64,000 nucleotides of DNA from Winogradskyella sp. PC-19 (GTDB lineage Bacteria > Bacteroidota > Bacteroidia > Flavobacteriales > Flavobacteriaceae), in the NCBI RefSeq assembly GCF_002163855.1, contig NZ_CP019332.1, positions 2,645,145-2,709,144 on the forward strand. The letters are read 5' to 3'. The position numbers were made by a program, and so were the translations under genes. Below the pieces are notes generated by a model. That model had not been told where the DNA came from. It saw only the letters and a program-made list of their open reading frames with translations, and ran no database searches. Of the stretch, positions 3,825 to 15,114 are shown one piece after another; position 1 is the stretch's first letter; every line of letters begins with the position of its first letter.

Positions 3825-5231
3825 TTAAATTTCTTTAGCAAGTTCAATGGCTTTGTTTAAAGCTCCTAACTTGTTGTATACTTCTTGTTTTTCACTTTCT
3901 GGATTTGATCTAGAAACTAATCCAGCACCAGCTTGCCAGTTAAGCTTATAATCTTTGCTCAAAAAAGTTCTAATCATGATAGCATGATTAAAATTGCCTT
4001 CAAAATCCATAAAACCTATAGCACCGCCATAATAACCTCGGCTAGTTTTTTCATATTTCTCAATTAATTGCATGGCTCTATGTTTTGGTGCACCACTCAA
4101 AGTTCCTGCAGGAAAAGTATCTGCTACGACTTGCATGGTTGAAGTCGAATCGTGTTTATGGCCAGTAACTTTACTTACCAAATGGATAACGTGTGAGAAA
4201 AACTGAACCTCTCTGTAAGTTTCAACCTTTACTTTATTTCCGTTTCGACTTAAATCGTTTCTAGCTAAATCAACAAGCATGACGTGTTCTGCATTTTCTT
4301 TTTCGTCATTTATTAATTCTTCTGCTAAGACAGCATCTTTTTTGTCATCACCTGTTCGCTTAAAGGTACCCGCAATTGGATGAATTTCTGCCAAACCGTT
4401 GTCAACTATAAGCTGTGCTTCAGGTGAACTTCCAAAAATCTTAAAGCTTCCGTAATCGAAATAGAAGAGGTAGGGCGACGGGTTAATACTTCTTAAAGCG
4501 CGGTAGACATTAAAATCGTCTCCAGAAAATTCTTGTGTGAAACGTCTTGACAATACTAATTGAAATACATCGCCTCTAGCACAATGTTTTTTTGCTAGAT
4601 CTACCTGTTTTATAAATTCATCATCAGTGAGGTTTGACGAAATATCATCTTTAGTATCAAAGTTGAATGATGCGAAATTTTGAACATTAATGAGTTTATC
4701 CACAGCATCTATATTGCTTTCTATACCGTCTGGACAATGCGCAAATATGTAGGCTTCATTTTTAAAATGATTTATCGCTATGATGTTTTGATACACTGCA
4801 TAGTATAGGTCTGGTATTTCAATAGAGTCATCTTTTTTAGAAATAACGATATCTTCAAAGTACTTAACTGCGTCATAAGCAGTATAGCCAAAAATACCAT
4901 TATTTATAAACTTGAAATTTTCTTCAGAATTGGAACTGAAACGTTTTGTAAACTGTTGAATTTCTTCTACAACATTTATTGATTCTGTAATGGCCATTTC
5001 AGTAAAGCTTCCGTCAGGAAAATTCTGAAATATAGCTTCATTTTCAACTTTTATTGAGGCTATTGGGTTAAAACAGATATAAGAAAAATTCTTGTGGTTT
5101 CTATGATAATCGCCACTTTCTAGTAGAATACTGTTAGGGAATTTATCGCGTACCTTGTAATAGACTGAAACTGGTGTAATCGTATCAGTTAGAATCTTTT
5201 TGTAATGGGTATGTAAATTAAATATTTTCAT
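3825..5231 (-). CDS. trpE: Anthranilate synthase component I
   Basis: Converts chorismate plus ammonia to anthranilate, the first committed step of tryptophan synthesis. Using the ATG at 5231 the protein is 468 aa and begins MKIFNLHTHYKKILTDTITP. The frame stays open to 5291, but that extension runs through the terminator hairpin of the leader, so the downstream ATG is chosen. The LLESGD motif of the tryptophan feedback site is present near residue 36. Catalytic-domain motifs follow: GDVFQLVLSRRF, IAGTFKRTGDD, DEKENAEHVMLVDLARND and the C-terminal GAGLVSRSNPESE. It is the first structural gene behind the attenuator. Confidence 0.96.
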   Translation of the reverse strand: MKIFNLHTHYKKILTDTITPVSVYYKVRDKFPNSILLESGDYHRNHKNFSYICFNPIASIKVENEAIFQNFPDGSFTEMAITESINVVEEIQQFTKRFSSNSEENFKFINNGIFGYTAYDAVKYFEDIVISKKDDSIEIPDLYYAVYQNIIAINHFKNEAYIFAHCPDGIESNIDAVDKLINVQNFASFNFDTKDDISSNLTDDEFIKQVDLAKKHCARGDVFQLVLSRRFTQEFSGDDFNVYRALRSINPSPYLFYFDYGSFKIFGSSPEAQLIVDNGLAEIHPIAGTFKRTGDDKKDAVLAEELINDEKENAEHVMLVDLARNDLSRNGNKVKVETYREVQFFSHVIHLVSKVTGHKHDSTSTMQVVADTFPAGTLSGAPKHRAMQLIEKYEKTSRGYYGGAIGFMDFEGNFNHAIMIRTFLSKDYKLNWQAGAGLVSRSNPESEKQEVYNKLGALNKAIELAKEI

Positions 5232-5235
5232 AAGT

Positions 5236-5274
5236 TTAAAAGAAAAAAGGCTTGTCGTGAATGACAAGCCTTTT
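5236..5274 (-). terminator. trp operon attenuator terminator
   Basis: On the minus strand a perfect 12-bp stem (5274-5263 with 5256-5245) closes a 6-nt loop and runs into a U-rich tract of TTTTTTCTTTT. It lies between the leader peptide and the trpE start, so it can only act as an intrinsic terminator ahead of the operon. The loop and the start of the 3' arm (TTCACGA, 5261-5255) are complementary over 7 bp to TCGTGAA at 5308-5302, inside the end of the leader ORF. This offers a candidate alternative pairing. Confidence 0.9.
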
Positions 5275-5297
5275 AGTATTTCAATTAACACAATGGA

Positions 5298-5354
5298 CTA
5301 TTTCACGAACGTTTCGTTAGTAAAATACCACCACCATGTTTGTTGTTTTCTCAT
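5298..5354 (-). CDS. trpL: trp leader peptide with three consecutive Trp codons
   Basis: A short ORF on the minus strand from the ATG at 5354 to the TAG at 5300-5298 encodes MRKQQTWWWYFTNETFVK (18 aa). Three tandem TGG codons sit at positions 7-9. Trp is the rarest amino acid, and the next elements downstream are a perfect terminator hairpin and trpE. This is the architecture of ribosome-mediated transcription attenuation: ribosomes stall at TGG when charged tRNA-Trp is scarce, and the terminator is then avoided. The peptide itself need have no function. No Shine-Dalgarno is visible, and the predicted transcription start lies within about 5 nt of the ATG. Confidence 0.9.
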   Translation of the reverse strand: MRKQQTWWWYFTNETFVK

Positions 5355-5361
5355 TTGATGT

Positions 5362-5392
5362 CAAATATAGAAATGATATATATGAATTCAAA
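5362..5392 (-). promoter_or_regulatory. trp operon promoter
   Basis: On the minus strand a -33 TTTG (5392-5389) is followed after 19 nt by TATATTTG (5369-5362). This is an exact match to the Bacteroidetes -7 consensus TAnnTTTG. It is the only such pair between yceI and the leader ORF. Transcription should start about 4-7 nt downstream, at or just before the leader ATG at 5354. Confidence 0.8.
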
Positions 5393-14718: not shown

Positions 14719-14723
14719 TTTTG

Positions 14724-15114
14724 TGGAGTCGGAGAGAATCGAACTCTCGTCCAAACAAGTAACCAAAGAGCTTTCTACACGTTTAGTTTTTTCTTAGTTT
14801 TCGATTGTAAGCCGATTAAAAACATTCTACTTACAACTTATCTTCTAAATCTCGAAAAGGCATTAAAGCACTACCTAATCTTAGTTAATATTTACGATGC
14901 CTCTAAATAGAACGCCATTAACCAAGGCTTTCCGGAGACATAAAGCTTGCCCACCTAGTGAGCCGAGGCTTAATCTTACTATAATTCAGATTATGCAGCT
15001 AAAGCGTAGTTATTCTCGCCGTTTAAAATTTGGTCTAGCCTTTTACGTGTTTCAATGCCATTACACGACGTGCTTACCATTTAATTAATCTCGCTGTCAA
15101 AACCAGTCGACCCC
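14724..15114 (-). ncRNA. ssrA: Transfer-messenger RNA (tmRNA)
   Basis: tmRNA rescues stalled ribosomes and adds a degradation tag. The mature 5' end GGGGTCGACTGG lies at 15114 and the 3' tRNA-like arm ends at 14724. The acceptor stem pairs GGGGUCG with CGACUCC (one G-U), and a complete T-arm is at about 14730-14755. The tag frame at 15020-14991 reads GENNYALAA followed by TAA, the form typical of Flavobacteriia. CCA is not encoded: the sequence after the discriminator A is CAA. The single-piece arrangement, about 391 nt, is standard. Confidence 0.96.
14991..15020 (-). other. tmRNA tag-peptide reading frame
   Basis: Within tmRNA the resume frame encodes GENNYALAA then TAA. The ALAA end is the recognition signal for ClpXP-type proteolysis. 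It identifies strand and lineage. Confidence 0.93.

Follow-up and report, generated by a model that had tools for sequence, protein, structure and literature searches.

Genes and elements of the trp locus

The window analyzed here, the whole 64,000-nucleotide stretch of the Winogradskyella sp. PC-19 genome, carries a trp operon preceded by a leader region, and all of the attenuator and operon features reported lie on its minus strand. The first structural gene, trpE (3825 to 5231, with its start at 5231), encodes anthranilate synthase I as judged by Pfam families PF00425 and PF04715 and is followed by trpG (3823 to 3257), trpD (3250 to 2258), trpC (2261 to 1476), and trpF (1479 to 859), all identified by Pfam matches. 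The open reading frame after trpF, running from 875 to the end of the window, is presumably trpB, a name taken from its translation and general knowledge rather than from a family search. Upstream of the leader are yceI, on the same strand, and a gene of the MarR family (Pfam). The best match to the TrpE of the window was found in a Winogradskyella MAG (95%; protein search, with the lineage checked). The window also contains a tmRNA gene at 14721 to 15114 on the minus strand (RF00023, 135.1 bits).

Ahead of trpE lies a leader open reading frame of 18 codons plus a stop codon (5298 to 5354), recognized from the sequence and from its relatives, that encodes the peptide MRKQQTWWWYFTNETFVK. Codons 7 to 9 are three tandem Trp codons (5328 to 5336), the regulatory codons, so that the leader carries codons for the end product of the operon. 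Between the leader and trpE, a simple terminator scan and folding identified an intrinsic terminator hairpin (5245 to 5274) with 12 perfect base pairs and a 6-nt loop, AAAAGGCTTGTC-ATTCAC-GACAAGCCTTTT, whose U-rich tract extends to 5238; its predicted fold (−16.8 kcal/mol, z of −7.5) was equaled in stability by none of 200 shuffled sequences. An earlier note on this DNA had described the 18-codon frame (5354 to 5298) with its three TGG codons (5336 to 5328), the perfect 12-bp hairpin with its U tract, and trpE behind it, and was right on each point. Attenuators of the enterobacterial trp, his, and phe operons combine a leader peptide bearing regulatory codons, competing RNA pairings, and an intrinsic terminator before the first gene, and the window element shares those three features.

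The RNA from the Trp codons to the terminator includes several segments that are predicted to compete for pairing. Segment A (AACATGGTGG, 5331 to 5340), which lies over the first Trp codons, would pair in the absence of a ribosome with segment C (CCATTGTGTT, 5287 to 5296) according to the minimum free energy (MFE) fold and the consensus helix of Rfam family RF01692; part of C (5291 to 5287) can alternatively pair with 5280 to 5276 in a predicted fold. A predicted protector hairpin, P (TATTTTAC.AACG-AAA-CGTT.GTGAAATA, 5299 to 5327), has a 12-bp stem containing a single mismatch (−7.1 kcal/mol, z of −2.49, with 6 of 200 shuffled sequences equally stable) and would sequester segment B (TCGTGAA, 5302 to 5308), the candidate 5' strand of an antiterminator, which was recognized by comparison and folding. 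The candidate 3' strand, B' (TTCACGA, 5255 to 5261), was recognized by comparison and consists of five loop bases followed by the two at the start of the terminator 3' arm; the complementarity between 5308 to 5302 and 5261 to 5255 that the earlier note had pointed out is exact over 7 bp. That note had also proposed a local hairpin between ACGAA (5317 to 5313) and TTCGT (5309 to 5305). Both motifs are present, but they do not make up the whole of the competing hairpin: the predicted P is larger (5327 to 5299), and in the folds the ACGAA:TTCGT pairing appears to be only an alternative core of its 12-bp stem. With that amendment, a local hairpin competing for B is backed by comparative evidence.

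A putative promoter (5362 to 5392), assigned on sequence alone, consists of TTTG (5392 to 5389), a 19-nt spacer, and the box TATATTTG (5369 to 5362). All 72 rows of an alignment of the window with 71 related loci have a TAnnTTTG box ahead of the leader, each with a TTG 18 to 21 nt upstream of the box, and TAnnTTTG is described as the Bacteroidetes −7 box in the available text of PMC9723704 and PMC6414381. The leader ATG of the window is located only 7 nt downstream of TATATTTG (5361 to 5354), unlike in enterobacterial attenuators, and the transcript from which the leader peptide is translated may therefore be nearly leaderless. Among the 68 leaders with an ATG, the gap from box to ATG is 7 to 9 nt in 11 and 12 to 22 nt in the others.

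Conservation and the Bacteroid-trp family

A search with TrpE yielded at least 458 relatives, the best 80 of which were kept and are hence close relatives. All of these 80 loci have a leader with three tandem Trp codons, which adjoins trpE in 71 and is displaced in 9, and the terminator arm GGCTTGTC lies downstream of the leader in 81 of 81 loci, the window included; this degree of conservation argues against chance and bears out the tandem Trp codons that the earlier note had suggested looking for in an alignment. The three Trp codons are invariant in the 72-row alignment, and the N terminus of the leader peptide is variable. The sequence TTCGTGA, which covers most of B, was found in 79 of 81 loci (70 of the 72 rows and 9 of the 9 displaced leaders). 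Its position relative to the stop codon shifts: B precedes the stop in 21 of the 81 loci, spans it in 19, and follows it in 41, and it lies in two reading frames. Retention of the B sequence across frames and stop positions points to selection on the RNA rather than on the end of the peptide.

The nine displaced leaders, for which a sequence-only model (R1) served solely as a means of location, end 388 to 727 nt upstream of trpE with an open reading frame in between (L006, L009, L020, L040, L043, L046, L048, L050, and L074). The one intervening frame that was scanned (L043) encodes a GIY-YIG domain (PF01541), and the other eight look alike; such a gene would fall under tryptophan control if it is cotranscribed with the operon. 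Within the 72 close rows, the terminator 5' arm GGCTTGTC (5270 to 5263 in the window) is invariant, and the 3' arm differs in 13 rows by changes that keep wobble pairing, which points to an additional constraint on the 5' arm.

The location of yceI upstream on the same strand would be compatible with a terminator that simply ends upstream transcription next to an incidental Trp-rich frame, or with control of the operon by TrpR, TRAP, or a T-box. However, the putative promoter separates yceI from the leader, and the leader is retained in every one of the best 80 loci. No T-box was found at the Rfam threshold in the window, and in 21 congeneric genomes, serving as a proxy for the genome of the window, there were no matches to TRAP (PF02081) and none above the cutoff to TrpR (PF01371), for which five weak matches fell below it. 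Taken with these results, an incidental leader or control by a protein or T-box is extremely improbable.

The locus matches the Rfam model RF01692, Bacteroid-trp, with 57.7 bits against a cutoff of 49 and over positions 1 to 131 of 131. By sequence, it is a member of this catalogued family and not a new system, and it has the short open reading frame with tandem Trp codons and the position upstream of trp genes in Bacteroidota (here trpE, trpG, trpD, trpC, and trpF). A:C and P match the two nested helices of the model, whose final bases represent the terminator 5' arm. The B:B' helix proposed for the window element is missing from the Rfam structure, which stops at that arm. On the opposite strand, a match to the small RNA Atu_C9 that fell below the cutoff (26.1 bits versus 40) was dismissed as a hairpin look-alike.

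The Bacteroid-trp motif was reported by Weinberg et al. in 2010 (PMC2864571), where Table 1 lists it as a probable cis-regulatory RNA rather than a riboswitch; that entry is the only place at which the main text, as available, names it. According to the available text of PMC6414381, which likens it to attenuation in E. coli, the named element stands upstream of the trp operon in F. psychrophilum. That of PMC9723704 gives strong indications of leader-peptide attenuation before F. psychrophilum amino-acid operons and refers to 5' elements ahead of hisG and pheA. The proposal of ribosome-mediated attenuation in a flavobacterium, as made in the earlier note, is supported by comparison, but the family was already known and the idea already in print. 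In the open-licence literature searched, including the available main text of PMC2864571 and the available text of PMC6414381, PMC9723704, PMC4833913, and PMC2965389, no description of the B:B' pairing was found and no experiment on it was seen; the pairing may already be drawn in the supplement of PMC2864571.

Proposed pairing of segment B with the terminator apex

B and B' are nearly invariant among the close relatives of the window in the 72-row alignment, which made covariation within that set uninformative as evidence; the covariation signal comes from distant members. These came from RF01692 searches of three overlapping genome sets, to which stricter filters were applied: 395 from the phylum of genome G001 (42 with a match at an E value of ≤0.001), 395 from its order (86 at ≤0.01), and 295 from the order of genome G348 (42 at ≤0.01). 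In one search, 30 of the 42 matches were supplied as loci. Of 200 candidates, 177 could be parsed and were grouped into 67 clusters, which were aligned by MAFFT without structure. The 23 unparsed candidates comprised the nine trpE loci with displaced leaders, which enter only the 81-locus set, seven trpE loci with a visible leader, and seven search matches (L131, L149, L178, L182, L187, L189, and L197). The search favors a conserved B but not a conserved B', since the model stops before the loop.

Among these 67 diverged leaders, 84.0% of the B:B' cells are paired, compared with 23.8 to 48.6% for slid controls, and changes on both sides occur at 8 of 8 pairs, with variants such as GTCGTAAG/CTTACGAC, TTGTGAG/CTCACAA, ACCGTGAGT/ACTTACGGT, CCGTGA/TCACGG, and TGAGAAGC/GCTTCTCG. 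The covariation score is 0.256 versus 0.177 in shuffled alignments, none of 500 of which scored as high, a statistic in which related rows are not independent and were counted without a tree. Because B' shares bases with the terminator 3' arm, the five loop columns were also counted alone; they are paired in 87.3% of cells, compared with 24.3 to 53.1% for slid controls, with 0 of 500 shuffles scoring as high. As a yardstick, the inner eight pairs of the terminator stem show 98.7% paired cells over the 67 rows and a covariation score of 0.513, and 8 of 8 have changed on both sides. The ends of the B:B' helix are weak, with 30 of 67 cells unpaired in columns 54:167 and 23 unpaired and 11 gapped in columns 61:160. 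In 65 of 67 clusters, versus 23.0 expected from shuffles, the best duplex with the terminator apex begins 20 to 36 nt past the first Trp codon. A shuffle test of the duplex in single sequences reached a P value of ≤0.05 in only 39 of 67 clusters (0.07 in the window); this test is weak, and weight was therefore put on position, covariation, and slid controls. The mean z over the 67 clusters is −3.66 for B:B' and −1.93 for the A:C helix. The slid controls, the two-sided changes, and the covariation of the loop alone agree with the contention of the earlier note that the partner of B is the terminator loop plus 3' arm. Comparative evidence supports both of the pairings for which that note had suggested a covariation check.

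The strand that B would capture sets this element apart from enterobacterial attenuators, in which the 5' arm of the terminator is the partner of the antiterminator strand. Among the 67 trp clusters, the duplex targets the loop and 3' arm in 54, the 5' arm and loop in 4, the 5' arm only in 5, and a spanning site in 4, so that 9 of 67 use the 5' arm alone or with the loop. The earlier view that the layout departs from the classic four-segment scheme therefore holds for the captured segment, which is the loop and the start of the 3' arm instead of the 5' arm, but the logic is still that of four segments. Leader frames, each with a terminator, also occur in the Flavobacteriaceae near hisG, where they carry runs of His codons, and near the prephenate dehydratase gene, where the runs are of Phe codons. 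These his and phe leaders resemble the trp leader in combining a peptide with runs of the cognate codon and a terminator, are found in the same bacterial family, and provide natural comparisons for the classic layout. Thirty loci of each kind were taken (of 49 and 51 matches; L201 to L230 and L231 to L260), and 26 and 19 were parsed, with the his locus L201 left out by hand on account of a hairpin unlike a terminator. Of these, 26 of 26 his leaders and 18 of 19 phe leaders have a best duplex that includes the 5' arm, alone or together with loop bases, as counted without a shuffle control. The trp layout is thus not simply the general way in which this group builds attenuators.

The use of the 5' arm by the his and phe leaders, and by the five trp clusters in which B pairs with the 5' arm only, raises the alternative that attenuation is real but that the antiterminator is a classic helix between a segment after B (D) and the terminator 5' arm (X), B being conserved mainly for P. 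In the window, D:X would join AGTC (5299 to 5296) to GGCT (5270 to 5267), a pairing that appears inside B:B' in the predicted stalled-state fold, and the 5' arm is the invariant one of the two terminator arms in the close rows. The mean z for D:X is small but below zero (−0.49; t test, P = 2.6e-5), far weaker than the −3.66 of B:B', and three or more D:X pairs occur in 66 clusters when 59.3 are expected from spacer shuffles. With a small signal that barely exceeds these shuffles, D:X was rejected as the main antiterminator. The loop columns of B:B', moreover, covary by themselves, which P cannot explain. A predominant D:X helix with B kept mainly for P is accordingly unlikely; a 5'-arm helix of this kind might help B:B'.

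Predicted switching and proposed mechanism

Folds computed for the ribosome-free RNA pair B with upstream sequence in 55 of 67 clusters and already contain B:B' in 11. When the RNA through W1+15 is taken as covered, fold prediction places B:B' in 57 of 67. Moving the covered edge through W1+6, +8, +10, and +12 raises the number of clusters with B:B' from 41 to 48, 54, and 57 while P falls from 23 to 15, 7, and 3. A ribosome whose A site holds a Trp codon would have its front edge at about this changeover. B is therefore predicted to be hidden unless a ribosome stalls, a result that is robust from W1+12 on. The stalled-state fold of the window itself is not exceptional (−11.7 kcal/mol, z of −1.33, with 24 of 200 shuffles equally stable).

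For a ribosome at the leader stop codon, the distance to the duplex was counted. A fold test in which B:B' appeared in 0 of 67 clusters was set aside, as the upstream RNA had been removed and the outcome was true by construction. In 62 of 67 clusters, the start of the best duplex falls within the interval from 13 nt before to 9 nt after the stop codon, a position at which a terminating ribosome, given the size of its footprint, would cover most or all of the B:B' duplex. The duplexes of L116 and L147, counted among the 62, are at chance level (P values of 0.98 and 0.65), so that masking at the stop codon fits fewer than 62 of 67; in the other five clusters, the duplex starts 18 to 37 nt before the stop.

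Once the full terminator is transcribed, the MFE fold retains B:B' in 0 of 67 clusters, and the exposure of a median of five further bases of the 3' arm flips the fold away from B:B' (57 tested). In the window, B:B' overlaps only the terminator apex, taking two of the twelve stem pairs. Antitermination by B:B' would, on these fold predictions, have to be kinetic or else involve a pseudoknot that spoils the terminator. The same geometry, in which the lower stem could coexist with B:B' and the complete transcript favors the terminator, suggests the opposite arrangement as well, a pseudoknot that promotes termination. A stalled ribosome would then free B and turn the operon off in starvation, contrary to the purpose of a trp leader, and those members in which B pairs with the 5' arm fit antitermination; a terminating role for B:B' is therefore very unlikely.

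The gene for the Trp-rich peptide 5' of the trp genes very probably acts as a ribosome-driven on/off switch, and the locus is, with good confidence, a Bacteroid-trp (RF01692) ribosome-mediated transcription attenuator in which B:B' would bring about antitermination. In the proposed mechanism, ample Trp-tRNA would allow the ribosome to reach the leader stop codon and cover B, so that the terminator folds and transcription stops, and in the absence of a ribosome, P and the A:C stem would hide B with the same result. When Trp-tRNA is short, we infer that the ribosome stalls on the tandem Trp codons and covers the 5' arm of P. As the terminator emerges, the freed B would capture its loop and the beginning of its 3' arm, which would delay terminator folding and let RNA polymerase read into trpE and the downstream genes.

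It is conceivable that the terminated leader RNA or the peptide acts in trans in addition to this control in cis, as reported for Sinorhizobium peTrpL in the available text of PMC7298713. In its favor, most of B and the 5' arm of the terminator are invariant in the 72 close rows, more uniform than pairing by itself would appear to demand, but the N terminus of the leader peptide varies, and a function in trans is highly doubtful.

Beyond this locus, there is a little less than an even chance that the trp leaders represent a Bacteroidota-wide class in which antitermination proceeds through capture of the terminator loop and 3' arm, as a kinetic block to hairpin nucleation that is compatible with a pseudoknot, rather than through a mutually exclusive stem, alongside his and phe attenuators of the 5'-arm type in the same family. 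Such a class would pose a mechanical puzzle, namely, how a helix on the loop and the start of the 3' arm stops a terminator whose lower 10 bp are untouched. RF01692 has been catalogued since 2010 without a worked-out switch in the literature covered here, as far as its available text extends, and the covarying B:B' helix provides a testable model of tryptophan control for members of a major phylum.
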